33,533 nt of DNA from Gemmiger formicilis. GTDB lineage: Bacteria > Bacillota > Clostridia > Oscillospirales > Ruminococcaceae. Positions within the stretch are counted from its first letter, which is position 1; each line of letters starts with the position of its first letter. The DNA is taken from NCBI RefSeq assembly GCF_016900095.1, contig NZ_JACJJP010000034.1:1-33533 (forward strand), given 5' to 3'. Under the pieces are notes generated by a model. It saw nothing but the letters and a program-made list of their open reading frames with translations, was not told the origin of the DNA and did no database searches. The translations under genes and the position numbers were made by a program. Shown here in pieces: positions 12,763 to 33,455 of the stretch.

Positions 12763-12789
12763 CGAAAATCCAACAACGCAACAATGCAG

Positions 12790-12816
12790 AGACCGAGCAG
12801 CGATGCCCGGTCTTTT
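12790..12816 (+). terminator. Possible weak terminator/attenuator before mobC
   Basis: AGACCG (12790-12795) pairs with CGGTCT (12808-12813) around a 12-nt loop, followed by TTT. It may end transcription from parB-tnpV or may be part of the oriT structure. Confidence 0.4.
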
Positions 12817-12835
12817 GCTATATGGAGGTGAAATT

Positions 12836-13117
12836 ATGTTGACTCGAAACGTGCAGATGAATATCCGGGTGACACCAGAAGAAAAGAAGCTGTTTGAACA
12901 GGCAGCCACCCAATGCGGGCTGACACTCTCCCAATACATCCGCATGCGGCTACACAACCAGATGCCCCGGCAACTGCCCAACGCCGACTACCGGCAGGTG
13001 CTGGATGCTCTCACCGCCCTCTACCACAAGGGCAACACACCGGAGGTGCAGCGGGAAATTCTGGACACGCTGCTGACCGTTCAGAGGGCGGTTACAGTGC
13101 CGCAGAAGGAGGAATGA
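12836..13117 (+). CDS. MobC-like relaxosome accessory protein
   Basis: A 93-residue protein starting at 12836 (MLTRNVQMNIRVTPEEKK) with GGAGGTGAAATT directly upstream. 'NVQMNIRVTPEEKKLFEQAATQCGLTLSQYIRMRL' is the ribbon-helix-helix DNA-binding start typical of MobC-type mobilization proteins: a strand with alternating polar residues, then two helices. Such proteins bind oriT and help the relaxase nick. The stop codon lies within the ribosome site of the relaxase gene (4 nt apart), so the two are translationally coupled. Confidence 0.82.
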   Translation: MLTRNVQMNIRVTPEEKKLFEQAATQCGLTLSQYIRMRLHNQMPRQLPNADYRQVLDALTALYHKGNTPEVQREILDTLLTVQRAVTVPQKEE

Positions 13118-13121
13118 GAAG

Positions 13122-18270: not shown

Positions 18271-18277
18271 ACCCCAC

Positions 18278-18973
18278 ATGAGCAACTTGACAGGATTTGT
18301 AAAACGGCTGCGGGACATCATGCGAAATGATGCCGGTATCAACGGCGATGCACAGCGTATCGAGCAGATCGCCTGGATGCTGTTTTTGAAGGTGTACGAC
18401 GCCAAGGAACAGGACTGGGAATGGGATGACGAGGAGTATAAATCCATCATCCCCACCGAATGTCGCTGGCAAAACTGGGCACATGATGATAAGTCCGGTA
18501 CCGCCCTCACTGGCGATAAACTTCTGGACTTTGTCAACAACAAGCTGTTCCCGACACTGAAAAATTTGCCGGTGGACGCATCCACTCCCATCAAAAAGGC
18601 AATCGTGCAAACCACATTTTCCGATGCCAACAACTACATGAAAGACGGTGTGTTGCTACGGCAGGTCATCAATGTGATCGATGACATCGATTTCAGCGAC
18701 TACGAAGAAAGCCATGCCTTCGGGGAAATTTACGAAACCATTCTGAAAGAGTTGCAAAGTGCCGGTTCTGCCGGTGAGTTCTATACACCCCGCGCTGTCA
18801 CCGACTTTATGGCCCAGGTCATCAAGCCTCAGATTGGAGAAACCATGGCAGATTTTGCCTGTGGTACGGGTGGCTTTATCATCAGCTGGCTAAAAGAATT
18901 GAAAAAGCAGGTCAAGACCACCGAGGATGAAGAGGCATATAGCAATTCCATTTACGGTATCGAGAAAAAGTAG
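18278..18973 (+). CDS. hsdM: HsdM N-terminal fragment (N-terminal domain plus SAM motif I)
   Basis: A 231-residue open frame ending at the amber stop. It carries the HsdM_N helical domain, the 'GEFYTPRAVTDFMAQ' block and motif I (ADFACGTGGF) but lacks the catalytic NPPY. Alone it could bind SAM but not methylate. GAGGTAGG lies upstream of the ATG, and it follows hsdR by 7 nt. Confidence 0.75.
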   Translation: MSNLTGFVKRLRDIMRNDAGINGDAQRIEQIAWMLFLKVYDAKEQDWEWDDEEYKSIIPTECRWQNWAHDDKSGTALTGDKLLDFVNNKLFPTLKNLPVDASTPIKKAIVQTTFSDANNYMKDGVLLRQVINVIDDIDFSDYEESHAFGEIYETILKELQSAGSAGEFYTPRAVTDFMAQVIKPQIGETMADFACGTGGFIISWLKELKKQVKTTEDEEAYSNSIYGIEKK

Positions 18974-18982
18974 TTTCCCTAT

Positions 18983-19756
18983 ATGCTTTGCGTGACAAAC
19001 CTGCTGCTTCATGGGCTGGATGTGCCGCAGGTATACCATGCCAATACACTGCTCCACGATGTGCTGGACTATACCGAGGACGATCAGGTGGATGTAGTGT
19101 TGATGAATCCTCCCTACGGCGGCAGCGAAAAGGCGGACGTGAAAAACCATTTTCCTGCCGATTTGGCCAGCAGTGAGACTGCGGATCTGTTTATGTCGGT
19201 TATTATGTACCGATTGAAACAGAATGGCCGGGCAGCAGTGATTTTGCCGGATGGATTTTTGTTCGGTACTGACAACACCAAGGTAAACATCAAGAAAAAA
19301 CTGCTCCGGGAGTTCAACCTGCATACCATTATCCGGCTGCCGGGCAGCGTGTTCTCGCCCTATACCTCTATCACTACCAATATTCTTTTCTTTGATAAGA
19401 CCCATCCCACCAAGGAAACCTGGTTCTATCGGCTGGATATGCCAGAGGGTTATAAGCATTTCTCCAAAACCAAGCCCATGAAACTGGAGCATTTCCAGCC
19501 GGTCCTGGACTGGTGGAATGACCGTAAAGAGATCGTCGAAGACGGCTTTGATAAGGCAAGGAAGTTTATGGTCCGGCAGCTTACCGATGAACTGGGCTAT
19601 AATCTGGACCAATGTGTCTATCCTCACGAGGAAGAAGAAATTCTGGCCCCGCTGGATTTGATTCATCGTTACGAGGAACAGCGTTCGTCCCTCAATGCCG
19701 AGATTGATCGGGTGTTGGAGCAGATCACTGCCATGCTGGGAGGAACCGCCGAATGA
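18983..19756 (+). CDS. hsdM: HsdM C-terminal fragment (catalytic NPPY motif)
   Basis: A 257-residue frame beginning at ATG 18983, nine nt after the amber stop and in the same frame. It contains NPPYGG and the remainder of the methyltransferase fold (DLFMSVIMYRLKQNGRAAVILPDGFLFG). There is only a weak purine-rich stretch (GAGAAAAAG) before the ATG, so translation would probably rely on reinitiation. It overlaps hsdS by 4 nt (ATGA). Confidence 0.65.
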   Translation: MLCVTNLLLHGLDVPQVYHANTLLHDVLDYTEDDQVDVVLMNPPYGGSEKADVKNHFPADLASSETADLFMSVIMYRLKQNGRAAVILPDGFLFGTDNTKVNIKKKLLREFNLHTIIRLPGSVFSPYTSITTNILFFDKTHPTKETWFYRLDMPEGYKHFSKTKPMKLEHFQPVLDWWNDRKEIVEDGFDKARKFMVRQLTDELGYNLDQCVYPHEEEEILAPLDLIHRYEEQRSSLNAEIDRVLEQITAMLGGTAE

Positions 19757-21249
19757 CCCCACAGGAACTGAAAAACAGCATTTTGCAGCTTGCCATCCAG
19801 GGTAAGCTGGTGGAGCAGCGCCCTGAAGAAGGCACGGCGGAGGAACTTTTTGCCCGGATTCAGGAAGAAAAGCAACGATTGATTGCAGAAAAGAAAATCA
19901 AAATCAATAAAAGAATAGAATCTATCTCTGATGACGTAATTCCATTTGATATACCTGAGTCTTGGATATGGGTACGCTTTGGCAATTTAGTTAATTACAC
20001 TATGGGGAAAACGCCCCCACGTGCAGAGCCAGAATGGTGGGGTACCGATATTCCTTGGGTGTCTATTGCAGATATGCCGGAAAGCGGACATATTTGTGAA
20101 ACAAAAGAAAGCGTTACCTCGGCGGCACTTGATAAAAAATTTGGAAATAAAATTTCTCCAGCAGGGACTTTATTGATGAGCTTTAAATTGACTGTTGGAC
20201 GAGTGTCTATTTTAGATATTGATGCGGTTCATAATGAAGCTATAATCTCAATATTTCCTTTCGTAGATGATGATAGTACAGAAAAAATGTATCTCTTTTA
20301 TGTACTGCCTTTTGTTTCTCAGTTCGGCGAAAGTAAAAACGCAATAAAAGGAAAAACATTGAACGATACCAGCATTAGCAATCTTCTAATTCCTCTCCCG
20401 CCACTTGCTGAGCAAAAGAGAATTGTTGCTAAAATCGAGGAACTGTTGCTCTATATTGACCGCTACGAGCTGGCGTGGAGCAAGCTGGAGCAGTTCAACA
20501 GCCGCTTCCCGGAGGATATGAAAAAATCCCTCCTGCAGTACGCCATTCAGGGCAAACTGGTAGAACAGCGTCCCGAGGAAGGAACAGCAGAGGAACTCTT
20601 TACCCAAATTCAGCAGGAAAAACAGCGCCTGATTAGCGAGAAGAAAATCAAAAAGGAAAAGTCCCTGCCCGAAATTACTGAGGACGAAAAAACTTTTGAT
20701 ATTCCGGAGAACTGGAAGTGGATAAGACTTGGGTCGATACTTCATTATATTGACACGGGTAAAAGTTTCAAATGTGATGAAATCCCACCTACAGGTAATA
20801 AATGTGGGATTATAAAAGTTAGTGCGGTCACATGGGGAAAATTCAATGAAAATGAAAGCAAAACTTGCTATTCAAATGAATCGTGGGTAGATGCGTATGA
20901 AATTCATAAAAATGATTTCTTGATATGCCGCGCTAATACGGCAGCCTTAGTAGGCGGTTGTGTAATCGTAGATAAAATTAGCAAACGACTAATGCTATCT
21001 GATAAGGTTTTGCGACTCCACTTTACTAAAATGATATATCCGTTTTATGTTTTATGGGCATTGAGGACACCATTTATTAGAAATCAATTTGGTTCGATGG
21101 CTACGGGAACTTCTGAATCAATGAAAAATATTTCGCAAGATATCCTCAAAAATACTGTCATACCTCTTCCACCTATTCCTGAACAAAGGCGTATTGTCGA
21201 AAAACTAGAACAACTGCTACCTCTGTGTGAGCGGTTGAAAGGCTTTTGA
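19753..21249 (+). CDS. hsdS: Type I specificity subunit HsdS with two target recognition domains
   Basis: The protein has 498 residues. HsdS binds the two halves of the target site and scaffolds two HsdM and two HsdR. Two half-repeats are visible. Each starts with a helical conserved region carrying AIQGKLVEQRPEEGTAEELF (about residues 14-50 and 264-300), then a target recognition domain opening with FDIPE.W.W.R.G, and ends with PLPPLAEQKRIVAKIEELL or PLPPIPEQRRIVEKLEQLL. The first domain contains 'TDIPWVSIADM' and the second 'GNKCGIIKVSAVTWG'. The conserved parts are GC-rich at DNA level while both recognition domains are AT-rich, a sign of domain exchange. The start overlaps the hsdM stop by 4 nt, so the two are coupled. 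No second hsdS copy or invertase is visible. Confidence 0.95.
   Translation: MTPQELKNSILQLAIQGKLVEQRPEEGTAEELFARIQEEKQRLIAEKKIKINKRIESISDDVIPFDIPESWIWVRFGNLVNYTMGKTPPRAEPEWWGTDIPWVSIADMPESGHICETKESVTSAALDKKFGNKISPAGTLLMSFKLTVGRVSILDIDAVHNEAIISIFPFVDDDSTEKMYLFYVLPFVSQFGESKNAIKGKTLNDTSISNLLIPLPPLAEQKRIVAKIEELLLYIDRYELAWSKLEQFNSRFPEDMKKSLLQYAIQGKLVEQRPEEGTAEELFTQIQQEKQRLISEKKIKKEKSLPEITEDEKTFDIPENWKWIRLGSILHYIDTGKSFKCDEIPPTGNKCGIIKVSAVTWGKFNENESKTCYSNESWVDAYEIHKNDFLICRANTAALVGGCVIVDKISKRLMLSDKVLRLHFTKMIYPFYVLWALRTPFIRNQFGSMATGTSESMKNISQDILKNTVIPLPPIPEQRRIVEKLEQLLPLCERLKGF
19792..19902 (+). repeat. Internal hsdS repeat, copy 1 (111 nt)
   Basis: Encodes the first conserved helical region. It aligns without gaps to 20542-20652, with mostly third-position differences; both begin GCCAT(C/T)CAGGG and end AAGAAAATCAAA. 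Such pairs allow recombination that exchanges recognition domains. Confidence 0.85.
20542..20652 (+). repeat. Internal hsdS repeat, copy 2 (111 nt)
   Basis: Second copy of the repeat at 19792-19902, 750 nt downstream, encoding the central conserved helical region between the two recognition domains. Confidence 0.85.
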
Positions 21250-21324: not shown

Positions 21325-24300
21325 ATGGACTATCCGAACTTTCCCAATATAACATGGCCTCAGTTTAAGGTCTGCAATGATGATTCTCAAACAGAGTTCG
21401 AAAATATGTGTCGGCAACTCTTCACATATGAATTTTTGAAAGACTCATGCATGCCCCATTCTAATCCGAATAATCCTGGTGTTGAGGTTGAGCCTGTATT
21501 GGAACCTGCGCGGTCGGATAAGAAACCACAAAGAAAAATTAGTTTTCAAGCCAAATTCTTTGAAGGGAAAGCTGATTATCGGCAGATCAAGGAATCTGCG
21601 CAGAAGGCTGTAAAATCTTATAAAGATAACCTGGATTTAATCTATTTGTTTTGTAATTGTGCGATCTCAACCCATAATCGCTCCTATAGATCAATTGAAA
21701 GATTACTTTCTGGCGCAGGTATCGAACTGTATCCAATTTCTAATACAGAGTTGTTAGATTTGGTCCGCAAATATCCAACAGTAGCAAACTATTACTTTAG
21801 AAATCGAGACCGTGCAAACGATTTGTCGTCACTTCCTGCAATGCAACTGAGATCTCCAGACCTTTCGACAACTGGCGATTCATTAACGCGTACCGAAGAT
21901 GTCGTGACCACTACTCAGCCTACCCCAGATAATAGCATTCTTATTGCCCTTTATCAGGACAAGGTCAAAAATTTTAGAAATGATATTCTAGAGCTTCGCC
22001 TAAATAACCTGGATTCCAAGATTCAGAAACTCCTTCCATCTAACGCAAAACTAATTGATGGCATGGATACGTTGATGTTTTACCATTTCTTATTGAACGT
22101 ACATAGCAACAATTCGGTTGAATTGGGCGCAATTCGAGAGAAACTTGCACCTGTATATTACAATGACGCAGAGTGGATGCTCACTTATTCGGCAGAGCCT
22201 AAGGACTTCTCACTCTCTGAGTTTGTACGCTTATTACCAGAAACACAAGTGATATTACTCAACAAGATGTTCTCAGACCAATCATGGAGTGACATCATTG
22301 ATTTAAGCCAAAAGGCAGAGCAAGCGCAAGGAGTTCTTGCTGAGTGTGTCACCAAACAGTTGCAGCTTTTATGCGCCCTTTCACTATTTAATCAGCGAAA
22401 ATATGACGTTGCATGTGAGCGACTAGATGAGTTATACGCTCGATATCATACAGATAAAATTGAGTTTTTCCGGGTGTGTGCTCATATCCAAAAAATCAAC
22501 AGTGAATTTATCTATGGAAGTAACCAGTGCCATTTTGATCTAGTGAACTATTTAAAGATTTTCGAGGATATCAAAAATCGTGCACCGGATCATTTCAATC
22601 AGAATTTGATTCTTGCAGCTAATCTGGAAATTGTTTCTTATCGTAATTTAAGTGAGGGTGATGTAGAACAGCTCAAACAAGTATTTGATAGATATGAAAA
22701 TTATTCCGAAACCGTTCGTAACAATCCTACAGTCAAATTTCAAATTGCTTTGTGCTATGAGATGGCCGCAGATTTTGAGCATGCATTGAGCATTTATTCT
22801 TCTTTTGAAGATCAGAATGACGAGTATGTGATGGCAAGAAAAGCATTTTGTAATATCCAACTTAAGCGCTATGAAGAAGCAATTCGTCTCTATTCTGATG
22901 TTGATATAAACAGATTGTCTCCACGTGCTCAAGGGGAATATTTATTAGCACTTAGCTATGGAGACACTGACCAATACTGCGCAATTCTGGATGCTGCCAT
23001 TAATCGAAATCGTTCAAACGTAATCGATTTGTTTTATATTGCGTACTATGTGAGAGATGAACGACTGTTTTGCGAAAAAATTGTACCAGTTCTCCAAGAT
23101 TTGCTCCAACAGGATGTAGACGCTTTTTCACAAGTCTCAATACCGGAACGGAACGGTTATCTATTAGTACTAGCACATTTTAATCAAATAGAATTGGTCA
23201 AGGCGATTCTAGATTCAGTTCATGACATTAGCAGCATCGATGCTTTTATTATTTCGACGATATGTCATTCACTTTTCGTCAAGCTAAATGAATATATAGA
23301 AAAGCCTGTACTCGATAAAATTTCTATTACTCAAATATATATATCCGATAAAATCGCCGATTATTTCCTGAGCTATAAGCCCGGCGATGTCAGTTATATT
23401 CAAATTAAGATGATGTGCGCACGCTTAAATCGAATGTCTCTTAGTGAATTGAAATTTGCAAAGCAGATATTTGAACAGCATCCAAATAAATTTTTGGCAA
23501 GTCGCATTATCCAATTACTGCAAGGGCAAAGAGAAACTGCAAGTGTGGAATATGACCGATATTTGGAAATGTTTAAAGAATCGGATAACGCAGAAGATGC
23601 CATTTATGTGGCACAATTGAGTGCTCGACTTGGAAGGGAAAGCGATGCAAAATTATATTTATATAAGGCCTTTTACAAGTTAAATGGAATAGATAACTAC
23701 ACGGTTTATTCTCATGCACTGATTATTTCTTGTTTGGCACCAGAAATTTTTAATGCAGAAAGCACTGATCGCAAAATTACCGGTAGTTCTGTGATCGTTT
23801 TGGAGCCGGAACAGCCAGTGGAAAATGCTTTACAATCCCAACTCTTGAAAATATGCTTGGATTCAGAGAAGGACTTTTCAGATGCAGATAATAAGAGCCT
23901 TGATATGCAACATTTTTCTAAAGACAGCAAAGGATATGTTAAGCTTCTTGGAGTGACAAAAAATCAAACAGTCAAACTAGGAAAAATCAGATACAAAGTG
24001 GTAGATATTCTCCCGCGTCATACCTACATTAGAATTTACCTTAATAAAAAAATGCAGGACGCTCCCCAAAAATTCAACAATAATGCTGTGCATCTTTTTT
24101 CTGGTAGTAGTGCGGAAGAAGCAATCAGTCAGATCAAGCAATATTTAGATAGCCATAATTTCAAGGCTAAGCATATCGAAGCATCATTGAAAATGTACAA
24201 TTTCGAGAATTTCGAATGGGGTATTCCTATTGATGCGTTTGTTGCAGGAGATTACCAAAGGTATATAGGTATTGCAAAGTATCTTCTATACGCAGATGAC

Positions 24301-25032
24301 CAGGCCTTCTACGCAGGAGAGCCTTCTGAATTTAACGGAAGTGCATATTGTGTGCCAACTTTATCAACCTTTGTTTTGCTCTGCCTAATTGATAAGCTGA
24401 ATGTACTTGATGGGATAAAAGACAAGCTTATCATTCCTGAAAGCTATTTGAGCTTTTTGAATGAACAATATGCCAAAGCAGTGCAAGCCCAAAAGAACTC
24501 AGAAGGACAGTTGGCGTCCATTGATGGCGAATTGGCTTTTTTGAAACTCGATGAGCAACTGCCTTCAATTTGGGAAAATATTCTCGATTTCTGTAATGAT
24601 TTACCGAGAGAAAGCGTCTCCAACGATGAACGTATAGAGCAAGATTTTATTGAAGGCTGTACACTAGAAAAACTTATGGCCCCATTTGGGGCCGAAAAGG
24701 TTCAGTTGGACTCCTTTATTCTTACCAAACGTAAAAATGCTATATATTTATGCGATGATCTTTTCTTTAGAAAGGTTGCAAATATAATAGGAATTCAAAG
24801 TATAAATTGCGCATCTCTCTTAAGGAATATGGTTGAAGAAGAAGCAGATGCAATAACAGTTGAGTTATCTAAAACAAATTATATCTATATACCATTGGAT
24901 ATTCTCTCTAATGAAAAATATGCGAAGGAGGTAATGGAAAATTTGCTCCATGGCAAACAAAAGGAAAAATATTATGGAGCCTGCTTTCATATTTTATCGC
25001 TTTTAATGAATGGCGAAAAAAACACTGATTGA
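21325..25032 (+). CDS. Large nuclease-like / TPR-repeat / PIN-like conflict-system protein
   Basis: The protein has 1235 residues; ATG 21325 is the first in-frame start, since a stop sits just upstream, and GGAGG precedes it. Residues about 20-150 look like a PD-(D/E)XK-type nuclease domain: FENMCRQLF (25-33), NPGVEVEPV (50-58), ISFQAKFFEGKADYRQIKESAQKAV (Q75-A-K77) and DLIYLFCNCAIS. About 270-800 is a long helical array of TPR-like repeats. About 871-910 (VKLGKIRYKVVDILPRHTYIRIYL) may be a GreA/B C-terminal-like domain. The C-terminus (about 1000-1200) is PIN-like, with 'CVPTLSTFVLLCLIDKLNVLD' and 'YLCDDLFFRKVANIIGIQSINCASLL', where D1144/D1145 would be metal ligands of an RNase. I recall a TPR-GreAB-C-PIN conflict family; assignment to it is tentative. 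It follows hsdS by 75 nt and is AT-rich, so it is cargo. Confidence 0.6.
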   Translation: MDYPNFPNITWPQFKVCNDDSQTEFENMCRQLFTYEFLKDSCMPHSNPNNPGVEVEPVLEPARSDKKPQRKISFQAKFFEGKADYRQIKESAQKAVKSYKDNLDLIYLFCNCAISTHNRSYRSIERLLSGAGIELYPISNTELLDLVRKYPTVANYYFRNRDRANDLSSLPAMQLRSPDLSTTGDSLTRTEDVVTTTQPTPDNSILIALYQDKVKNFRNDILELRLNNLDSKIQKLLPSNAKLIDGMDTLMFYHFLLNVHSNNSVELGAIREKLAPVYYNDAEWMLTYSAEPKDFSLSEFVRLLPETQVILLNKMFSDQSWSDIIDLSQKAEQAQGVLAECVTKQLQLLCALSLFNQRKYDVACERLDELYARYHTDKIEFFRVCAHIQKINSEFIYGSNQCHFDLVNYLKIFEDIKNRAPDHFNQNLILAANLEIVSYRNLSEGDVEQLKQVFDRYENYSETVRNNPTVKFQIALCYEMAADFEHALSIYSSFEDQNDEYVMARKAFCNIQLKRYEEAIRLYSDVDINRLSPRAQGEYLLALSYGDTDQYCAILDAAINRNRSNVIDLFYIAYYVRDERLFCEKIVPVLQDLLQQDVDAFSQVSIPERNGYLLVLAHFNQIELVKAILDSVHDISSIDAFIISTICHSLFVKLNEYIEKPVLDKISITQIYISDKIADYFLSYKPGDVSYIQIKMMCARLNRMSLSELKFAKQIFEQHPNKFLASRIIQLLQGQRETASVEYDRYLEMFKESDNAEDAIYVAQLSARLGRESDAKLYLYKAFYKLNGIDNYTVYSHALIISCLAPEIFNAESTDRKITGSSVIVLEPEQPVENALQSQLLKICLDSEKDFSDADNKSLDMQHFSKDSKGYVKLLGVTKNQTVKLGKIRYKVVDILPRHTYIRIYLNKKMQDAPQKFNNNAVHLFSGSSAEEAISQIKQYLDSHNFKAKHIEASLKMYNFENFEWGIPIDAFVAGDYQRYIGIAKYLLYADDQAFYAGEPSEFNGSAYCVPTLSTFVLLCLIDKLNVLDGIKDKLIIPESYLSFLNEQYAKAVQAQKNSEGQLASIDGELAFLKLDEQLPSIWENILDFCNDLPRESVSNDERIEQDFIEGCTLEKLMAPFGAEKVQLDSFILTKRKNAIYLCDDLFFRKVANIIGIQSINCASLLRNMVEEEADAITVELSKTNYIYIPLDILSNEKYAKEVMENLLHGKQKEKYYGACFHILSLLMNGEKNTD

Positions 25033-25250: not shown

Positions 25251-25283
25251 ATAGTGCTACATTCGATAGTAGGAGTGCGTACC

Positions 25284-25838
25284 ATGAAAAAGTATTGTCT
25301 AAGTATCAGCCGTCTTCCACGTAAAGTGTTTGATATTATTCTAACTTTCTCAGCCTCAGCTTATGTTATTGTAGTATTCTTAATTAAAGAAAAGGCTTTG
25401 ATTCCATTTATTCCTCAAACTTTAGACTTTATATCTTACACTATTTATTTGGCTACTCCTGTACTTATTTCTTGGCTTTGTTTAGTTGTTTCTAGATTTT
25501 TACCAGCATGCGGCATGGAATGCAAAATTAAAGAAGTGGAATTAGCAAGCCATTCTTTTCTGCCAAATTATCTTGGTTACTTTTTTGTGGCCCTTAGTAT
25601 TCCAGATAAGAAAACATTTTTCTTTGTGTATCTAGTTGTTTCCATTTTTGTACATCTCTCACAAGCACTGAGTTTTAATCCATTGTTTTTGCTCTTTGGA
25701 TATCAGTTCTACTTTGTTACAGGTGAAGATGGAACAAAAATATTCTTGATTACAAAACAAAAAATGAAAACTTACCAAGATGTAAAACTAGATAATCTCC
25801 GAAGAATCAATGATTTCACTTTTATTGATATGAGGTGA
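25284..25838 (+). CDS. kwaA: KwaA-like four-helix membrane protein (Kiwa defence)
   Basis: A 184-residue protein from ATG 25284 with AGGAG upstream. About four membrane segments are visible: 17-34, 48-72, 92-107 and 110-128. A soluble tail follows, 'FNPLFLLFGYQFYFVTGEDGTKIFLITKQKMK', continuing to the end. Size, topology and the downstream DUF4868-like partner match KwaA of the Kiwa anti-phage system, where a membrane sensor works with the DNA-binding effector KwaB against phage DNA entry or replication. The stop codon overlaps the ribosome site of the next gene (4-nt gap), so the two are coupled. The call rests on gene pairing and topology; sequence identity to known KwaA could not be tested. 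Confidence 0.62.
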   Translation: MKKYCLSISRLPRKVFDIILTFSASAYVIVVFLIKEKALIPFIPQTLDFISYTIYLATPVLISWLCLVVSRFLPACGMECKIKEVELASHSFLPNYLGYFFVALSIPDKKTFFFVYLVVSIFVHLSQALSFNPLFLLFGYQFYFVTGEDGTKIFLITKQKMKTYQDVKLDNLRRINDFTFIDMR

Positions 25839-25842
25839 AAGT

Positions 25843-26664
25843 ATGAACTATTTGTTGGCGCGAGTTCGTGACCGACGAAACGGTATAAGGTGTGTTTTGT
25901 CTAATCAAAAGATTTATAATGCCCCAGATACATTAGATACAGCGGTTCCGTATGCGCCTGATGATACGTTAGAAGAAGATGAATGGTTCTATTTGAGTGA
26001 CTTTACACAAAAAGATTACTGCCCGGATCTTTTGAAGTGCCCACTTAATGGTACGGCTTATGCTGAAATTGACGAAGGTGAGCTTGATACAATTTCTTTC
26101 CTTTGCTGTCTACAAGACGATGGCCTGGTCTATTTTCAGAGAGTCACAAAGACGCAGCTACTTCGACGGAAAAGAATAGTATTTGGTAATGCAGTGAAAT
26201 TTGAAGATAATGCGAGAGAAATTGTTATTAATTCTTACCCCGATGCGATTTTTCGTGCCGCTGATAACCGGTTGTTTTTTCGAAATTTATCTTCTATCAC
26301 AAGTATTTTCCGTGGAATAGATGAAATATTCCGCGAAGCGACAGATGAAGAAACGAAAAGCTTTTTGGCGTCCGACTTTATTGTCGCAGGGGAAAATTAC
26401 GATAGTTCATGTGTAAAAAAAGCAAACCGAAAGAGAATTGCGCTTGCTAAGGAAGCTCTGGATAGCTATGATCCGGAACAAAAAAAGGCTGTTTTAAGTT
26501 CTATCAGAGAGTATTACCCATCTATCATCAACGATGACAATACATTCAAAATCGAAAATGATGAAGATCTGACATATCTGTTATATGGCATACTACAAAG
26601 ATACTACACAACAGCAGATGGAAGAGAAAAACGAATAGCAAGTTCCGTCCGTAGTTTGCAGTGA
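25843..26664 (+). CDS. kwaB: KwaB-like DUF4868 protein (Kiwa defence effector)
   Basis: A 273-residue soluble protein with GAGGTGAAAGT before ATG 25843. It has the features I associate with DUF4868: an N-terminal beta-rich half with 'REIVINSYPDAIFRAADNRLFFRNLSSITSIFRGIDEIFREA', then helical 'VKKANRKRIALAKEALDSYD' and a closing 'FKIENDEDLTYLLYGILQRYYTTADGREKRIASSVRSL'. In Kiwa, KwaB binds DNA and is held by the membrane partner KwaA. Reference KwaB is about 315 residues, so this one is somewhat short, but both family-typical ends are present. It is directly coupled to the kwaA-like gene and followed after 45 nt by the helicase gene. Confidence 0.65.
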   Translation: MNYLLARVRDRRNGIRCVLSNQKIYNAPDTLDTAVPYAPDDTLEEDEWFYLSDFTQKDYCPDLLKCPLNGTAYAEIDEGELDTISFLCCLQDDGLVYFQRVTKTQLLRRKRIVFGNAVKFEDNAREIVINSYPDAIFRAADNRLFFRNLSSITSIFRGIDEIFREATDEETKSFLASDFIVAGENYDSSCVKKANRKRIALAKEALDSYDPEQKKAVLSSIREYYPSIINDDNTFKIENDEDLTYLLYGILQRYYTTADGREKRIASSVRSLQ

Positions 26665-26709: not shown

Positions 26710-29700
26710 ATGCTTCACCCCGGCCTCTACGAACAAGTCATCAACAATGCCTTAACCAGCGAGCTGTCAGATATTCCTGACGCCCGCAAATCCATTGCGC
26801 CTATTGATAAGGCGGAAGCGGCCAAGGTGCTGGCGCAGTATCTGACAGACGTGGTGCAAAAAGGTATGGAGAACGTTCTGGATAACGGCGGGGATATCTC
26901 TGCCCAAATCGCCCTTGCCAATCAGATTGTCACCCTCATTCAGAACACAACACAAGAAGCTGACTTTGCCACGCTGGGCGTTGACCAGCGGGCAGAGCAG
27001 CTTCTTGCTCTTTTGCGGGAACAAGATCCTCGATTGGCAGCAGGAAAAACAGCAGCCGATCTAAGCCGTCCGGAAACCTCTATTGCTCAAAGCAGTCTAT
27101 TTACAGGGGCTATAAATGAGCCGCAGATGTACACCGAGCTGAAAAAGGAGATCCTTTCCGCTGACCGAATCGATATGCTGGTATCGTTCATCAAGTGGAG
27201 CGGCTTGCGTCTTTTGATAGATGAACTGCGAGAGTTCACCCAAAATGGTGGCGAATTGAGGATTATAACCACCTCCTACATGGGTGCTACGGATGTGAAA
27301 GCCATCGAGGAGCTGCGAGCGCTGCCGAATACCCGGATAAAGGTAAGCTATGATACCAAGCGTACCCGGCTCCACGCCAAAACTTATGTATTCTACCGCA
27401 ATACCGGGTTTACCACCGCATATGTCGGCTCATCCAACCTGTCCAATGCCGCCATATCCAGCGGCCTGGAATGGAATGTAAAGGTCACCCGCAAAGACCT
27501 ACCCGAAACCATAACCAAAATTGCAGCTACCTTTGAGAGCTACTGGAATTCCAATGAGTTTGAGTATTATTCGGAAGATCAGAAAGAGCGCCTGGCGCGG
27601 GCATTGAAGGCGGAAAAGTATTTTGATGCCAATAATACAGCCCTCTATACCATGGATATCGCGCCCTACTCCTACCAGCAGGAGATTCTGGACAGATTAG
27701 AAGCAGAGCGGACCGTCCGCGGTTATACCCGCAACTTGGTAGTGGCTGCCACCGGCACCGGCAAGACAGTGATTTCTGCTCTGGACTACAAACGATTCCG
27801 AAAACAAAATCCGGGCAAACCCTGCCGACTTCTCTTTGTGGCCCACCGGGAAGAAATTCTGCGGCAAAGTCTATACACCTTCCGAGCGGTTTTAAAGGAT
27901 GCCAACTTTGGTGAATTGTTTGTTGGAAACTACCGGCCGGAAACCATCGACTACCTGTTTCTGTCTATCCAGACTTTTAACTCACAGGATTTCACTGCTA
28001 AAACTGCCCCGGATTTCTACGATTACATAATTGTGGACGAATTTCACCATGCGGCTGCGCCTACTTACCAAAAGCTGCTCTCCTATTATCAGCCCAAGAT
28101 TTTACTGGGGCTGACGGCTACACCGGAACGCATGGACGGCAAAAGCATTTTGCCGTACTTTAACTATCGCATTGCTGCCGAAATTCGGCTGCCGGAAGCC
28201 ATTGACCGCAAATTGCTTTGTCCGTTCCAGTATTTCGGAGTTACCGATACGGTGGATCTGAACACGCTCAAGTGGAGCGCTGGCGGCTATGACAAGGGAG
28301 AACTGTCTGCGTTATATACCTTCAGCGGAGCAGTAGCGAATCGCCGTGCAGATCTGGTGGTTTCTTCTCTGCTGAAGTATGTGACGGACATAGACGAGGT
28401 CAAAGGGTTGGGATTCTGCGTTACGGTTGACCATGCCCAATTCATGAGCCGGTATTTCAATGACCATGGAATTCCTTCTATCTTCTTGATAGGAAAATCT
28501 TCCGATGAAGAAAGAAAATCCGCCAAAGATCGGTTGATTAGAGGAGATATCCGCTTTATCTTTGTCGTGGATATCTATAACGAAGGTGTAGATATTCCCG
28601 AGGTCAATACGGTGCTGTTCTTGCGCCCCACCGAGTCCTTGACCATTTTCCTGCAGCAGCTGGGCCGTGGTTTGCGGCTGGCAGAGAACAAAGAGTGCTT
28701 GACGGTGCTGGACTTTATTGGTCAGGCAAATAAGCGGTACAACTTTGAAGATAAGTTTGCAGCACTGTTGTCCAACACTTCCCGCGGCGTGACCCGAGAG
28801 ATCAAAGACGGATTTGTATCGGCTCCCAGGGGCTGTTATATCCAGCTGGAAAAGAAGGCGGCTAAGTATATTCTGGACAACATTCGGGCCTCCTATGGCA
28901 ACACAGCAGGGCTGGTTTCCCGTGTGGCCAGTTTTACGGAGGACAGCGGTCTGGAGCTGACGTTGACCAATTTCTTGGAGTATTATCATCTGGACCCACG
29001 GACGATCTACAAATTTTCTACTTTTTCCCGACTCTGTGCCCGTGCGGATGTAATGGATGATTTTCAGGAGCCTTTAGAAGAAGCCCTCACAAAAGCCATG
29101 GGGCGTCTAGCGGTGATCGATTCCCGGCGATGGATTCAGTTTTTGCTGGAACTCCTGCCTCGGCTGGACAATGTGAACTTTGCAACGCTGGGTGAGTTGG
29201 AGCAAAGGATGCTTCAGATGTTTTATGTCACTGTATGGGGCAAGGCTGCCGAGGACTGGACTTCTGATGAGGTGCTGGATCATTTGTATGCTCTTTCAGA
29301 CAGTCCGGTCTTGCTGGGAGAACTGCAAGAGCTGCTGCGATACCGGTACGAGCAAATTGACTTTATTGATGAGCCAGTAGATCTGGGATTCGATTGCCCT
29401 TTGGATCTGCACTGTACTTATTCCCGTGACCAGTTGCTGGTAGCTTTGGATTTTATGAAACCGTCTACTGTGCGAGAAGGTGTGAAATGGCTGCCGGAGA
29501 AAAAGCTAGATGTGTTTTTTGTAACCCTCAATAAGTCAGATAAGGATTACTCGCCTACGACGATGTACAACGATTACTCCATTAACGAGAGCCTGTTCCA
29601 CTGGCAGAGCCAGAGTACTACAGCGGCAGATTCTCCTACCGGGCAGCGGTACATCCACCACCGAGAACGTGGGAGTAAAGTGCTACTGTTTGTGCGAGAG

Positions 29701-29865
29701 TTCAAATCAGACCGAATCAATGGCGGAGCGGCGGCTTACACTTTCCTGGGTACTGCCAACTATGTGAAACATGAAGGCAGTCGTCCCATGAATATCACTT
29801 GGAAATTGGATCGGCCTATCCCTGCGAAATTCTTGAAAAAGACAAATAAACTGGTGGTTGGATAA
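26710..29865 (+). CDS. PLD-nuclease / DEAD-helicase / DUF3427 protein
   Basis: The protein has 1051 residues, start at 26710 with AGGAAG upstream. Three parts are clear. (1) A phospholipase-D-type nuclease domain at about 130-280 with one HKD motif: H222-A-K224 in RLHAKTYVFYR, then YVGSSNLSNAA. (2) An SF2 helicase at about 310-680 with ATGTGKT (347-353), DEFH (443-446), LTATPERMDG (468-477) and QQLGRGLRLAE (649-658). (3) A C-terminal DUF3427 domain ending in FHWQSQSTTAADSPTGQRY, VLLFVREFKSD and YTFLGTANYVKHEGSRPMNITWKL. Such proteins are common in defence islands and probably unwind and cut foreign DNA. The stop overlaps the next gene by one nt. Its codon use is more GC-rich than both flanks, suggesting a separate origin from the Kiwa-like pair. 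Confidence 0.92.
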   Translation: MLHPGLYEQVINNALTSELSDIPDARKSIAPIDKAEAAKVLAQYLTDVVQKGMENVLDNGGDISAQIALANQIVTLIQNTTQEADFATLGVDQRAEQLLALLREQDPRLAAGKTAADLSRPETSIAQSSLFTGAINEPQMYTELKKEILSADRIDMLVSFIKWSGLRLLIDELREFTQNGGELRIITTSYMGATDVKAIEELRALPNTRIKVSYDTKRTRLHAKTYVFYRNTGFTTAYVGSSNLSNAAISSGLEWNVKVTRKDLPETITKIAATFESYWNSNEFEYYSEDQKERLARALKAEKYFDANNTALYTMDIAPYSYQQEILDRLEAERTVRGYTRNLVVAATGTGKTVISALDYKRFRKQNPGKPCRLLFVAHREEILRQSLYTFRAVLKDANFGELFVGNYRPETIDYLFLSIQTFNSQDFTAKTAPDFYDYIIVDEFHHAAAPTYQKLLSYYQPKILLGLTATPERMDGKSILPYFNYRIAAEIRLPEAIDRKLLCPFQYFGVTDTVDLNTLKWSAGGYDKGELSALYTFSGAVANRRADLVVSSLLKYVTDIDEVKGLGFCVTVDHAQFMSRYFNDHGIPSIFLIGKSSDEERKSAKDRLIRGDIRFIFVVDIYNEGVDIPEVNTVLFLRPTESLTIFLQQLGRGLRLAENKECLTVLDFIGQANKRYNFEDKFAALLSNTSRGVTREIKDGFVSAPRGCYIQLEKKAAKYILDNIRASYGNTAGLVSRVASFTEDSGLELTLTNFLEYYHLDPRTIYKFSTFSRLCARADVMDDFQEPLEEALTKAMGRLAVIDSRRWIQFLLELLPRLDNVNFATLGELEQRMLQMFYVTVWGKAAEDWTSDEVLDHLYALSDSPVLLGELQELLRYRYEQIDFIDEPVDLGFDCPLDLHCTYSRDQLLVALDFMKPSTVREGVKWLPEKKLDVFFVTLNKSDKDYSPTTMYNDYSINESLFHWQSQSTTAADSPTGQRYIHHRERGSKVLLFVREFKSDRINGGAAAYTFLGTANYVKHEGSRPMNITWKLDRPIPAKFLKKTNKLVVG

Positions 29866-30302
29866 TGAATTCAAATAGCGAAAATCCAAGAGTGGGCAGA
29901 TTATTTCAAATTCAAGTTCAGCAATGGTTCCAAGCCGTAAGGAAAGAAGTGTATCAATTAGAAGTGCCCATTGCAATAGGAAAACCTGCGAAACCGCACA
30001 AATTTGATTTGGCCAATTCTAGCGGAAAGACTGTCGTGGAATGTAAATGCTATACCTGGACAGAGACTGGAAATGTACCAAGTGCAAAAATGCGATCCGT
30101 AAACGAGGCTGCGTTTTATTTGTCTTTCTTGTCGTATGATGTCGAGAAATGTGTTGTTATGGCAAAGGCAACACATCCACGGCGAAATGAAACATTAGCT
30201 GAATACTACTATAGAATCAATCATCACCTATTGGGAGATATCAAGATTCTTGAGTATGATACCGACGCGAATGAGATGCGAGTTATAGGTGAAAAGGCAT
30301 GA
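29865..30302 (+). CDS. Small PD-(D/E)XK nuclease-like protein
   Basis: A 145-residue protein whose ATG overlaps the helicase stop (TAATG). It has a minimal restriction-endonuclease fold: an N-terminal helix (GRLFQIQVQQWF), D48 in KPHKFDLA, and the E59-x-K61 motif in KTVVECKCYT, followed by a helix (MRSVNEAAFYLSFL) and strands. The spacing of D and ExK across a hairpin is right for a PD-(D/E)XK core, so metal-dependent DNA cutting is plausible. No separate DNA-binding domain is visible; the adjacent helicase may deliver it. It overlaps the Nudix gene by 4 nt. Confidence 0.72.
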   Translation: MNSNSENPRVGRLFQIQVQQWFQAVRKEVYQLEVPIAIGKPAKPHKFDLANSSGKTVVECKCYTWTETGNVPSAKMRSVNEAAFYLSFLSYDVEKCVVMAKATHPRRNETLAEYYYRINHHLLGDIKILEYDTDANEMRVIGEKA

Positions 30303-30685
30303 CAGAAGTAGTAGCAGCCCTTATTTGGGATAGCAACAAATTTATGATTTGCCAACGACCTGCAAATAAGGCTCGTGGGTTACTCTGGGAATTTGTGGGC
30401 GGCAAGGTTGAACTAGGTGAAACGAAGGAGCAGGCCCTTGTTCGTGAGTGTCAGGAAGAACTGGCAATCACTTTGGACGTTGGTAAAGCGTTTATGGAAG
30501 TAGTCCATGAATACCCGGATTTAAATGTTCATTTGACCCTATTTAATGCATCCATTCGGGAAGGTGTTCCACAAAAGTTGGAGCACAACGATATCCGTTG
30601 GATTACAGTGAAAGAGATTGGCGAGTACAAATTTTGTCCGGCAGATGAGGAAATATTAAAGAAAATTTGTGAGACGTTTGGCTAA
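30299..30685 (+). CDS. MutT-type Nudix (deoxy)nucleoside triphosphate pyrophosphohydrolase
   Basis: A 128-residue protein with a full Nudix box: GGKVELGETKEQALVRECQEELAI fits G-x5-E-x7-R-E-U-x-E-E-x-x-U, with Ala where many have Gly. The opening VVAALIWDSNKFMICQRP and the GLLWEFVGGK segment are typical of MutT/8-oxo-dGTP hydrolases. It would hydrolyse a nucleoside triphosphate to the monophosphate and PPi. Its start overlaps the nuclease gene stop (ATGA), so it is translated together with helicase and nuclease. Nudix genes beside DUF3427 helicases recur in genomes, which points to a role within the defence module such as altering a nucleotide signal or modified phage nucleotides. That role is inferred. 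Confidence 0.92.
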   Translation: MTEVVAALIWDSNKFMICQRPANKARGLLWEFVGGKVELGETKEQALVRECQEELAITLDVGKAFMEVVHEYPDLNVHLTLFNASIREGVPQKLEHNDIRWITVKEIGEYKFCPADEEILKKICETFG

Positions 30686-30708
30686 ATTTGCAAAGCGGAG
30701 AACAAACC

Positions 30709-31752
30709 ATGGCAACAAACGGATTGAATCTGGTTTATGCAATAAAAGATGGAGCGGGAATCAGCATAGAAGATGTTGACAGTGGGTCGAAGTGCGGATG
30801 TTTTTGTCCGGCTTGTGGAGAACCCTTGGTTGCCAAAAAAGGGACCAAGGTTATGCACCATTTCGCCCATCATTCGGGAAGCACCTGCGAATATGGCTAT
30901 GAAACGTCTCTTCATCTTATGGCGAAAGATATCTTATCGCGGACCAAAAAGATTACAATCCCAGCGGTCTATGTTGAATTTCCAGATTCTGATAGAAGCC
31001 CACAATTATATCGTGCAGCACAAGAAATAGCAATTGATCGCGTTGTTTTAGAGGCGCGGTATGATAATTTTATTCCAGATATAGCTTTGTATGTTGGATC
31101 AAAAGTTTTATTTGTGGAGATATATGTTACACATGCTATCGATTCATCGAAACTCGAAAGATTAAAAAGAGAAGGTATTTCAACTATTGAAATTAATCTG
31201 AGTAAAAAGGATCGAATGATTACTGAGCAGGAACTTCGGGATATCTTGCTAAAAGTTTCGGATGAGAAAACGTGGAAATATAATGTGATTGCCGACAAAA
31301 TTGCCACAAAAATATACACACTATCAGAGCTAAAAAATCTTGATGATGGCATTTATGTGAATAATTGTCCTGTAAAATCGTGGCTGTTTGGCAAAAATAT
31401 TAACGCTGATTTTGTGAATGATTGTCGGGAGTGCGCTTTTTGTTATAAGTACTTTTTCACCCATGAAGAAGAAGGAGATATTATCCGCTCACTTCTTTGT
31501 GCTGGGAAGGAACGCATTGCGGAAATAGAGGATGTTAACATTCCCACAGAAAAGCGTCTCCCAAAGCGTAATGCAGAAATCGAGGCATGGAAAAATAATC
31601 GTATTGATAAAAGGATTTGCCCCCTTTGCGGCGCAAGACTTATAAATCGGTGCAGCCGATACGGTTGCTTTCTAGGATGCAAGAATTATCCTCGGTGTAC
31701 GTTTATGGCTTACAGAGATGCCGAAACCGGACAGAGGAAAATGAAGGTATAG
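30709..31752 (+). CDS. CoiA-like nuclease with two zinc-binding modules
   Basis: A 347-residue protein. ATG 30709 (MATNGLNLVYAIKDG) is chosen over an ATG 21 nt upstream because GCGGAG lies before it. The N-terminus has a CoiA-type zinc segment: CFCPACGEPLVAKKGTKVMHHFAHHSG (C33, C36, then His residues). The nuclease core follows with D124 (FIPDIALYVG) and LFVEIYVTHAIDSSKLERLKREG (E137, no Lys two residues later; CoiA proteins commonly vary here). A C249/C252/C255 cluster may bind a second metal. The C-terminus is a topoisomerase-type C4 finger: CPLCGARL, then FLGCKNYPRC. CoiA acts in competence; here the defence context suggests DNA processing against invaders. It follows the Nudix gene by 23 nt and is AT-rich. 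Confidence 0.8.
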   Translation: MATNGLNLVYAIKDGAGISIEDVDSGSKCGCFCPACGEPLVAKKGTKVMHHFAHHSGSTCEYGYETSLHLMAKDILSRTKKITIPAVYVEFPDSDRSPQLYRAAQEIAIDRVVLEARYDNFIPDIALYVGSKVLFVEIYVTHAIDSSKLERLKREGISTIEINLSKKDRMITEQELRDILLKVSDEKTWKYNVIADKIATKIYTLSELKNLDDGIYVNNCPVKSWLFGKNINADFVNDCRECAFCYKYFFTHEEEGDIIRSLLCAGKERIAEIEDVNIPTEKRLPKRNAEIEAWKNNRIDKRICPLCGARLINRCSRYGCFLGCKNYPRCTFMAYRDAETGQRKMKV

Positions 31753-31856
31753 GTAGGCTGTATCCCTAACATCATCGAGGTGGATGGAAAAAACTGTACA
31801 TAGGAAATGTTTCCCGCAGAGAAATATTGAGACTTTTTGAAGAGGAAAGGAAGTGA

Positions 31857-33056
31857 ATGCCAATAATGAGTACAGCAGATATCCAAATTTCTGATGAAGA
31901 AGCCCTCCAAAACTTTCTGCTGGACATAGATTGTCTGGATGAACTGTTACCGTGGACCAAACGTTTTAATCTCTTTGATATCTTAAAAATATCAAGGACT
32001 GAAATTCGCCATAGCAATATGCTTGGTTGGCTTTTGAATCCCAATGAAAATCACGGTTTAGGAGATGCTCTACTTAAATCCATCCTACAGGACGTAGTTC
32101 GTGCAGATAGCAGTCGGTATGATGTCTTTGAAACCTTGTTAATGGATTTATATAGCTTTTCCGTGTATCGGGAATGGAAAAATATTGATTTGCTACTTAT
32201 ATCTAGCACAGAACGGTGCGCAATTGCCATCGAAAACAAAATCGGTTCCCATGAGCACGACAATCAGTTGGCCAGATACAGAAAAACACTGGAAAGCGAT
32301 TATCCTCAATATCGAAAAATTTATTTATATCTTACCCCGGATGGGGAAGAACCCAGTGATGCAGAAAATTGGAGTACTCTGACGTATGAGAACGTTATGG
32401 AGTTCTTATCTGAACTACGCAATTCTATTGAAATGACACCTGACGTAGCCTTGGTAATTGATAACTATCTCGATGTTCTCAGGAGGGATATTGTGGAAGA
32501 CCAGAAATTGGTTGAAGTTTGCAATAAGATATATGCCAAGCATAAAAAGGCACTGGATCTGATTTTCGAGCATAAAACCGATAGCAGGACACAATTGATA
32601 GAAGCGGTACGTGCCGCTCTTACGCGCTTGTCTGAAGAAGGCGTCATTGAGTTCTTTAGAGAGGAAAGCACGAACACTTTCTTACAGTTTTATACGGCTA
32701 AAATGAATGATTACCTTATACCGCTCCAAACGCCAAATAGCTCCTGGGGCAATGAGCATGTCTACAACTACTGGATTGGTATACGCGAGGACCAGCTTTG
32801 TGGCGTTTTTGAAATAGGCGGCTGGAATATTCCTGACGAAGAAATGGAAAAGATGCAAAGAATCATCGATCTGACAAAGCCTTCAGACAAGAGGCGGGAG
32901 AGTTTTCGTTATAAACGGATTTTCCGAACAGGCTGGCATCAGGTTGAAGAAGCAGATAGCTATGATGATGCGGTTTACAACTGTGTAAAGCGAATCGTCG
33001 CAACGCTTCTAAAGAAAGAAGAAAATCTACTGAAACAGCTTGAAAATAAAAGTTAA
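31857..33056 (+). CDS. PD-(D/E)XK nuclease family protein (PDDEXK_4-like)
   Basis: A 399-residue protein. The ATG at 31857 has GAGGAAAGG six nt upstream; an ATG at 31866 is the alternative. It shows the family order: TEIRHSNMLGWLLNPNENHGLGD (47-70), D111 (REWKNIDLLLI), E126-N-K128 (CAIAIENKIG), then HDNQLARYRKTL with the Q-x-x-x-Y signature. A basic C-terminal half (YRYKRIFR-like, 'FRYKRIFRTGWHQ') probably binds DNA. Such proteins occur in defence islands and prophages; activity has seldom been shown. It lies 104 nt after the coiA-like gene, a gap with no visible terminator, so it may be the last gene of the same transcript, though with looser spacing. Confidence 0.85.
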   Translation: MPIMSTADIQISDEEALQNFLLDIDCLDELLPWTKRFNLFDILKISRTEIRHSNMLGWLLNPNENHGLGDALLKSILQDVVRADSSRYDVFETLLMDLYSFSVYREWKNIDLLLISSTERCAIAIENKIGSHEHDNQLARYRKTLESDYPQYRKIYLYLTPDGEEPSDAENWSTLTYENVMEFLSELRNSIEMTPDVALVIDNYLDVLRRDIVEDQKLVEVCNKIYAKHKKALDLIFEHKTDSRTQLIEAVRAALTRLSEEGVIEFFREESTNTFLQFYTAKMNDYLIPLQTPNSSWGNEHVYNYWIGIREDQLCGVFEIGGWNIPDEEMEKMQRIIDLTKPSDKRRESFRYKRIFRTGWHQVEEADSYDDAVYNCVKRIVATLLKKEENLLKQLENKS

Positions 33057-33244
33057 GGAATTTGCACCTTCTTGGGATGAGAGCGTTTACTTTTCCCTTT
33101 CGGTGACGAGGCAACGTGCATCACTCATTCCATCAATCATAATGAGCGTATGAAATGAGCGATGCGAAATATTTATACCGAAAGTGCGGGGCAATGCTTA
33201 GAAGTCTTTCAAAGATGGCTACAAAAAGCTCTAAAATAGATGAA

Positions 33245-33279
33245 AATTAACTTCTGGCCAAATTGGCCAGAAGTTAATT
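33245..33279. repeat. Palindrome 1, core GGCCAA-A-TTGGCC
   Basis: A perfect 35-nt palindrome with 17-bp arms around a single A at 33262. Confidence 0.9.
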
Positions 33280-33291
33280 CGTAGAGAACAA

Positions 33292-33320
33292 AAAAATCGG
33301 GCCAAGTTGGCCCGATTTTT
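33292..33320. terminator. Palindrome 2, core GGCCAA-G-TTGGCC, bidirectional terminator-like
   Basis: A perfect 29-nt palindrome with 14-bp arms around G at 33306. The arms begin with AAAAA and end with TTTTT, so it resembles a terminator in both directions and could end the nuclease gene transcript. A one-base loop is too tight, so the innermost pairs would open in RNA. Confidence 0.65.
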
Positions 33321-33343
33321 CGGTTGACCAATTTACCATCTCC

Positions 33344-33368
33344 ACTTCGGGCCAACTTGGCCCGAAGT
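33344..33368. repeat. Palindrome 3, core GGCCAA-C-TTGGCC
   Basis: A perfect 25-nt palindrome with 12-bp arms around C at 33356. Its inner 19 nt (CGGGCCAA arm) match palindrome 2 except for the central base. Confidence 0.9.
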
Positions 33369-33455
33369 AATTGCAAAACCTCCCAAAAAGCTTATACATA
33401 CGTAAAAAATGGATAGCGTATAATCGAGTTCGCAAAAGCAAATAAGAAATAGACA

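Follow-up and report, generated by a model that had tools for sequence, protein, structure and literature searches.

Do five closely packed genes for a helicase-nuclease, a small nuclease, a Nudix hydrolase, a CoiA-like protein and a PDDEXK_4 protein constitute a single defence system, as the original prediction proposed, or are they neighbours of different origin? We pursued this question for a contig of Gemmiger formicilis (NZ_JACJJP010000034.1), whose entire 33,533 nucleotides are referred to here as the window.

The five-gene run within its defence island

All five genes were found on the plus strand at the predicted positions and with the predicted spacing. Gene 1 (26710..29865) and gene 2 (29865..30302) share one nucleotide in a TAATGA junction, gene 2 and gene 3 (30299..30685) overlap by the 4 nt of an ATGA, gene 4 (30709..31752) begins 23 nt beyond gene 3 at ATG 30709 with a GGAG upstream (the mechanically called reading frame begins earlier, at TTG 30688), and a gap of 104 nt precedes gene 5 (31857..33056). 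The domains proposed for genes 1, 3, 4 and 5 were recovered with Pfam, and the assignment to defence-type genes was borne out. Gene 4 codes for a CoiA-like protein with a C4 zinc ribbon (CoiA_N, 1.8e-11; Zn_ribbon_Top1, 2.2e-12), and gene 5 for a PDDEXK_4 protein (9.6e-38) that matches the PADLOC model for the single-gene candidate PDC-S26 (6.5e-127). The view that four different nuclease folds are assembled here is too strong, since the proteins encoded by genes 2 and 5 both belong to PD-(D/E)XK, to which CoiA is usually assigned as well.

A system in which all five proteins act together would fit the common strand, the short gaps and the lack of a clear intergenic terminator. However, the same-strand run already begins before position 26710: a Kiwa pair, kwaA (25254-25838) and kwaB (25843-26664), ends 45 nt upstream of gene 1, and compact packing is thus a property of the island, which carries a type I system besides Kiwa. 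The terminator scan says little either way, since the number of terminator-like sites (nine) is near that in shuffled sequences (mean 7.2) and both plus-strand sites in 26710-33056 lie inside genes, namely genes 1 and 5; promoter and terminator scans of the locus were uninformative. Co-occurrence ran against the five-gene system. Neither gene 4 nor gene 5 was present in the 39 other gene-1 neighbourhoods (in six of these, the sequence runs out within 3.3 kb downstream of gene 1) or at eight plasmid-borne gene-1 loci. Among 245 genomes of the class, gene 4 drew a single partial match and gene 5 no match outside the genome that carries the window, and three plasmid neighbourhoods of gene-4/gene-5 relatives contained no such partner genes. 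The CoiA-like and PDDEXK_4 genes are consequently rare in the class and do not recur beside DUF3427 helicases. On these data we rejected the five-gene system, and we consider joint action of all five proteins very improbable; genes 4 and 5 look like unrelated neighbours, each an independent cargo of the island. A separate search of viral contigs recovered one relative of gene 5 and no relative of gene 4.

Gene 1 and its recurrent Nudix neighbour

Gene 1 is predicted from homology to encode a SauUSI-type type IV (modification-dependent) restriction enzyme. It matches PADLOC mREase_IV with an E-value of 4e-231 and contains the Pfam domains PLDc_2, ResIII, Helicase_C and DUF3427. As a single sequence it finds SauUSI (PDB 7clg) at 2e-91, and the profile of its family spans 7clg residues 8-952 at 1e-252. 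The homology therefore extends over the full length and includes the C-terminal SRA-like target-recognition domain, given as residues 806-953 of SauUSI (PMC7913695). The gene-1 family thus resembles the Staphylococcus aureus enzyme in its order of PLD nuclease, SF2 motor, coupler and DUF3427/SRA-like domain, whereas gene 1 differs from it by about 105 extra N-terminal residues, by a Tyr at the acidic position of the SauUSI HxK(x)4E motif and by its partner genes. The PLD residues H222, K224, G240, S241 and N243 (HxK and GSxN) are invariant among 18 homologues. The SF2 motor has intact motifs, and its ATGTGKT (Walker A), DEFH (D443-E444-x-H446) and QQLGRGLR show complete or almost complete conservation in these homologues.

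Gene 3 codes for a MutT/NudG-type Nudix hydrolase with an intact Nudix box (PADLOC PDC-S07, 8e-44; Pfam NUDIX_4, 3.5e-23). The predicted recurrence of Nudix genes beside DUF3427 helicases holds for a part of the gene-1 family: in draft genomes, a Nudix gene lies within 1.5 kb of gene 1 at 22 of 42 loci (15 downstream on the same strand, two upstream, five convergent), and among the 28 Nudix places from 28 gene-1 genomes, 19 lie less than 1.5 kb from gene 1. Nudix is the sole widely recurrent neighbour, with 20 loci in one BLAST cluster and five in the next. The Nudix tree requires 10 changes of linkage, nine of them forced by well-supported branches, and the hydrolase is present in 25 of 36 gene-1 genomes versus 45 among the other 204 (p 5e-8 by Fisher's test, with nested draws assumed). 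No Nudix gene was found within 1.5 kb at the remaining 20 of the 42 loci, two of which end at a contig edge and one of which (L039) is in the host genome itself. An extension of the link to plasmids failed, as the 3 kb around each of the eight gene-1 homologues found there, of which two are from Clostridia, are free of Nudix genes. The pairing has already been published for streptococci: neighbouring genes for a SauUSI homologue and MutT are known in Streptococcus (PMC7641849), and PDC-S07 co-localised with a type IV restriction system in 23 of 23 cases in S. suis (PMC12813430). In their accessible text, these reports do not describe a small nuclease between the two genes, as is present in the window, and the accessible literature states no mechanism for the pair.

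What might the hydrolase do for the restriction enzyme? E. coli NudG (Orf135; PDB 2rrk), a 5-methyl-dCTP pyrophosphatase, is among the gene-3 relatives with a solved structure and shares with gene 3 the Nudix box, the fold family and an Asp at the column of E. coli MutT Asn119. The k_cat/K_m of NudG is 1,300 x10^3 M-1 s-1 for 5-methyl-dCTP as against 47 x10^3 M-1 s-1 for CTP (PMC5158307). Unlike gene 3, nudG of E. coli occupies its own chromosomal place, and a NudG-like substrate of gene 3 is putative. The Asp as a distinguishing mark of linked Nudix proteins had to be dismissed, since it is found in 22 of 22 linked proteins but in unlinked relatives as well. A role of gene 3 in nucleotide cleaning is plausible. 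In the reading that we favour, its product would act on dCTP with a 5-methyl, 5-hydroxymethyl or similar modification, release the monophosphate and thereby keep salvaged or phage-made modified nucleotides out of the host chromosome, sparing it from attack by gene 1. We regard this substrate and this self-protective function as doubtful, and lowered the weight given to them because the plasmid gene-1 loci do without a Nudix gene.

The protein could possibly be a general sanitiser of the nucleotide pool instead, hitch-hiking with gene 1 or offsetting the stress of DNA breaks, so that modified cytosine would be irrelevant to the link. Close relatives of gene 3, up to 80% identical, occur without an adjoining gene 1 in many genomes, the eight plasmid copies of gene 1 lack the partner, and the NCBIfam MutT and NudG-type models score gene 3 about equally (94.5 and 95.4 bits), both below their cut-offs (156 for the NudG-type model). 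Such a role does not readily account for repeated adjacency to one enzyme family in three arrangements. An improbable third option directs the hydrolase against the phage: by destroying phage-made modified dNTPs, it would leave the phage the choice of losing its modification or being cut by gene 1. The substrate class would be the same as in the self-protection reading, yet gene 1 would miss unmodified phage DNA, which sets the two arms partly against each other.

A small nuclease beside several kinds of restriction enzymes

Gene 2 encodes a protein of 145 residues that has no match in Pfam, among PDB sequences or in PHROGs. Its proposed PD-(D/E)XK nature is nevertheless upheld by an invariant D-x10-E-x-K motif (D48, E59 and K61 in 58 members) and by a predicted model (pLDDT 94.1) with the element order H-E-E-E-H-E, which together provide the alpha-beta core and D...ExK active site typical of PD-(D/E)XK proteins. 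The top fold matches of the model are restriction and related nucleases, and we are confident that the predicted fold is XisH-like. The protein differs from XisH (PDB 2okf, 2inb) in that identity amounts to 14-15%, that a 58-row profile gave no sequence-level match and that part of its relatives reside in restriction loci.

The original prediction regarded this nuclease as a possible component of the helicase system. Its relatives are in fact rarely found beside DUF3427 helicases (two of 80, plus the window), but they adjoin other restriction enzymes, which had not been foreseen. Seventeen of the 80 have a restriction gene within 3 kb, and a single locus has one beyond that distance. Five lie immediately downstream of GmrSD (L075, L091, L092, L102 and L093), a type IV restriction enzyme unrelated to gene 1 (PMC4619093), four are placed between HsdS and HsdM (L108, L111, L134 and L136), and two follow ZacC-like genes (L077 and L095); the four kinds of enzymes (SauUSI-like, GmrSD, type I and ZacC-like) are adjoined on separate branches of the family. 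The published survey of GmrSD neighbourhoods counted Pfam domains (PMC4619093), and the gene-2 family, which has no Pfam model, could therefore not appear in it.

From this distribution we tentatively propose for gene 2 a portable nuclease that consists of a single PD-(D/E)XK domain, is coupled in translation to genes 1 and 3 on either side and may contribute, in trans, a second activity that cuts or trims DNA; such an accessory role is possible. It is equally conceivable that gene 2 does not work with gene 1 but stands alone, as a mobile or selfish nuclease that inserts into variable regions. For 63 of the 80 relatives, this screen showed no restriction gene within 3 kb, some adjoin housekeeping genes, neighbours are very diverse, and the family is scattered over many phyla and archaea. 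Independence is harder to reconcile with restriction genes that cluster within 3 kb and nearly vanish beyond, with the four enzyme kinds on separate branches, and with the way in which the start and stop of gene 2 overlap genes 1 and 3. Both junctions, TAATGA and ATGA, are seen again at L074, the only other locus found with genes 1, 2 and 3 in this order, where gene 1 is broken (residues ~581-982 are missing).

A search of 295 genomes of the order revealed one further gene-2 carrier, in which the gene adjoins GmrSD, and 291 genomes of the class yielded one whose protein is a longer and distant relative. Two distant relatives in the plasmid collection are, by annotation, not adjacent to gene-1-like genes. 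A phage origin was rejected, as 50,697 phage records contained no match to gene 2. Eight IMG/VR contigs encode relatives; in two of them, L263 and L264, GmrSD adjoins the gene, so that the contigs may stem from islands and not from phages. A library of viral structures returned distant matches only, several of them named nucleases. A limited literature search found no published description of the family, which is a weak negative.

An integrated reading of genes 1 to 3

Collectively, we favour, with a probability of roughly 45%, a reading in which a type IV restriction enzyme with a frequent Nudix partner has acquired a portable accessory nuclease inserted between the two, genes 4 and 5 standing apart. 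The SRA-like C-terminal domain of gene 1 would recognise modified cytosine, probably 5mC/5hmC, whereupon the SF2 motor would translocate on the DNA and paired PLD domains would cut it. A broader proposal takes gene 2 as the founding member of a family of portable accessory nucleases, so far undescribed, that would serve unrelated restriction enzymes and widen or finish their attack on DNA; here it would be coupled with a cutter and a self-protective Nudix hydrolase. We judge this proposal to be unlikely as a whole.

SauUSI and other type IV restriction enzymes are usually portrayed as proteins that act singly. The recurrence of a Nudix partner suggests that they may face an unrecognised problem of self-protection, posed by modified nucleotides entering the host DNA. 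A small nuclease family common to modification-dependent and type I loci would, if true, be a new accessory part, and one necessarily missed by neighbourhood surveys that count Pfam domains, as no Pfam model covers it. Should both readings fail, the locus would still show that tight same-strand packing in a defence island is no evidence for a single system.

Two matches to the cytosine methylase family PF00145, one of them partial, are present in the host genome, and some 5mC may hence exist in the host, a point against the favoured reading. The same genome holds a second copy of gene 1.

The SauUSI-like enzyme and its Nudix neighbour

Genes 1 to 3 (26710-29865, 29865-30302 and 30299-30685, all on the forward strand) plausibly constitute a unit in which a type IV restriction enzyme is combined with a putative accessory nuclease and a Nudix enzyme that would clean the nucleotide pool; the core pair is known and the middle gene is unusual. 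We give this reading as a whole a probability of about 0.45 (0.5 before the plasmid control described below). The identities of the three genes are near certain, and the roles proposed for genes 2 and 3 are hypotheses, each of them rather doubtful.

Gene 1 has matches to mREase_IV, a type IV model of PADLOC (E 4e-231), and to SauUSI itself (PDB 7clg; 2e-91), and its motor and nuclease motifs are conserved. A profile of gene 1 built from 18 homologues aligns to residues 8-952 of the 953 residues of SauUSI, including the target-recognition domain. Two features differ: the closer clade of gene 1 possesses ~105 additional N-terminal residues, and gene 1 carries a Tyr at the acidic position of SauUSI's HxK(x)4E. 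Homologues (E <= 1e-60) are present in 62 of 391 genomes of the class, its own genome counted, and a second full-length copy (71% identity) resides on contig C55 of the same genome.

Our view of the gene-1 neighbourhood relies on 40 regions fetched from 75 places listed, namely the best ones and hand-picked distant ones; exclusion of L015, a 3.4-kb contig, left 39 loci, to which the window and two loci brought in via gene 2 (L074 and L103) were added. Among these 42 loci, which include two whose downstream side ends <=3 bases from the contig edge (L054, L057), a Nudix gene is found <=1.5 kb from gene 1 in 22 (19 of 39 without the window, L074 and L103), positioned downstream on the same strand in 15, upstream in 2 and convergently in 5. 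When the eight nearest ORFs were grouped into BLAST clusters, the Nudix gene was the only widely recurrent neighbour (20 loci; next cluster, 5). A search of 28 gene-1 genomes located gene 3 at 28 places, of which 19 lie <=1.5 kb from gene 1, and the two genes co-occur above expectation in 240 genomes (gene 3 in 25/36 genomes with gene 1 vs 45/204 others; p 5e-8, a value that holds if the genome draws are nested, as their handle numbers suggest). In a tree comprising 22 linked Nudix proteins and 39 unlinked ones (the latter a selected set, 39 of the 40 fetched; some branches are long and the bootstrap is not settled), 10 changes of the linkage label are required, and well-supported branches force 9 of them; the pairing has thus been gained or lost repeatedly.

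A Nudix gene is lacking within 1.5 kb in 20 of the 42 loci, close gene-3 relatives are also found apart from gene 1, and in a plasmid control outside the genome draw none of eight gene-1 homologues (40-49% identical; two from Clostridia) had a Nudix gene or gene 2, 4 or 5 within 3 kb. The pair is thus not universal, although common in part of the gene-1 family. What lies between the two genes varies: L043 has a nitroreductase-like gene there and L038 a cupin-like one (names given by eye from translations), and the window has gene 2. In L065 (5426-7057), a 543-residue ORF beside the SauUSI-like gene includes the Nudix partner and is possibly a fusion.

The pairing itself is already known. MutT homologues adjoin SauUSI homologues in Streptococcus (PMC7641849, figure legend), and in S. 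suis PDC-S07, the PADLOC model matched by gene 3, is co-localised with RM type IV in all of 23 cases (PMC12813430); neither that legend nor the co-localisation passage gives a mechanism. Gene-3 relatives with solved structures include MutT proteins and E. coli NudG, for which a table in PMC5158307 records a preference for 5-methyl-dCTP over CTP, and SauUSI is described in a passage of PMC7913695 as cleaving DNA containing 5-methyl- or 5-hydroxymethylcytosine. A host with a SauUSI-type cutter would have to exclude these bases from its own DNA at target sites, and a pyrophosphatase acting on modified dCTP, as gene 3 might encode, could accomplish this. The two PF00145 cytosine-methylase matches in the host, one of them partial, complicate a simple picture of 5-methylcytosine as foreign, unless sequence context decides. 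An Asp at the position of MutT Asn119, a base-contacting residue, is present in all 22 linked Nudix enzymes; since unlinked ones share it, it is a family trait and was ruled out as a mark of linkage.

Neighbourhoods of the small nuclease

The closest relatives of gene 2, a 145-residue PD-(D/E)XK protein, come from Clostridia, to which the host therefore probably belongs as well. Judged against a reference set of restriction proteins, such a protein lies <=3 kb away in 17 of 80 gene-2 loci and beyond 3 kb in one (the match in L115 is weak, 34 bits, and that in L095, a ZacC-like protein, runs via a C-terminal domain common with GmrSD fusions). Going outwards to 8 kb, the distance bins contain 8.4, 3.9, 0, 0.6 and 0 matches per 100 kb, the near bins being somewhat favoured because the set includes GmrSD and type I proteins first met as neighbours of this family.

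Gene-2 relatives are positioned directly downstream of GmrSD in L075, L091, L092, L102, L093, L257/L266 (one place), L263 and L264; the GmrSD proteins of the first four are very dissimilar, except for a C-terminal part common to L091 and L092. In one clade (L108, L111, L134, L136) they are placed between HsdS and HsdM; in L077 the preceding genes are ZacB- and ZacC-like, and in L095 a ZacC-like gene precedes. SauUSI-like genes accompany gene 2 in the window, L074 and L103; the window and L074 proteins form one clade, and that of L103 is separate. L074 (Faecalibacterium sp. UBA7177) has the same order of genes 1, 2 and 3 with identical stop/start overlaps, and its gene 1 is without residues ~581-982. 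Other gene-2 relatives adjoin housekeeping genes, e.g., lepA or a tRNA synthetase gene.

The GmrSD fusions of L091 and L092 and the ZacC-like helicase of L095, all preceding gene-2 relatives, have a C-terminal domain in common (DUF4268 in the former two, PDC-S11-like in the latter), possibly an adaptor for the small nuclease. L002 encodes a 247-residue gene-2 relative (1132-1875) with an additional N-terminal part, and the upstream ORF, which by eye we take to resemble TniQ/TnsD, hints at a link with transposition.

Genes 4 and 5 and the surrounding island

The original prediction placed genes 1 to 5 correctly, overlaps and gaps included, and viewed them as one candidate defence system. Gene 4 (30709-31752), CoiA-like and bearing a zinc ribbon of the topoisomerase type, and gene 5 (31857-33056), PDDEXK_4/PDC-S26, were found in none of the 39 other gene-1 neighbourhoods (phmmer E <= 1e-5; six end <=3.3 kb downstream of gene 1), which makes a five-gene system very improbable. 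A search of 245 genomes of the class recovered one further match to gene 4, confined to the zinc ribbon, and no further match to gene 5. Plasmid records contain partial gene-4 relatives (54) and gene-5 relatives (26), and the annotation of the three such neighbourhoods read names neither a SauUSI-like nor a Nudix gene nor a gene-2 relative.

Several separate defences lie side by side in the island. Across the window, contig C27 of a 98-contig draft genome of 3.26 Mb, the G+C content runs from ~0.65 at the left end to 0.33-0.50 at the right end. Chromosomal-looking genes on the left (TRCF, peptidyl-tRNA hydrolase, pyruvate phosphate dikinase) are followed by genes of a mobile-element type (ParB, TnpV, NikA-like and relaxase; 11226-14507), and the island is perhaps carried by a mobilisable element. 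The type I system HsdR-HsdM-HsdS (15928-21249) has its HsdM split into successive N6_Mtase parts (18278-18973 and 18983-19756) and may therefore be inactive. A 1235-residue protein (21325-25032), which weakly matches TPR-like repeats and a PIN-TPR-GreABC model and has no PADLOC match, adjoins a Kiwa pair (25254-26664) located on the strand of gene 1. KwaA and KwaB are matched by PADLOC (2.6e-15 and 3.3e-15) and by neither Pfam nor NCBIfam; the pair ends 45 nt directly upstream of gene 1, and genes 1 to 5 follow. After gene 5, three palindromes with the core GGCCAANTTGGCC (at 33256, 33300 and 33350; region 33244-33370) span 107 bases, against a mean of 0.01 expected from shuffles of the window, and may serve in recombination, regulation or transcription termination at the island edge.
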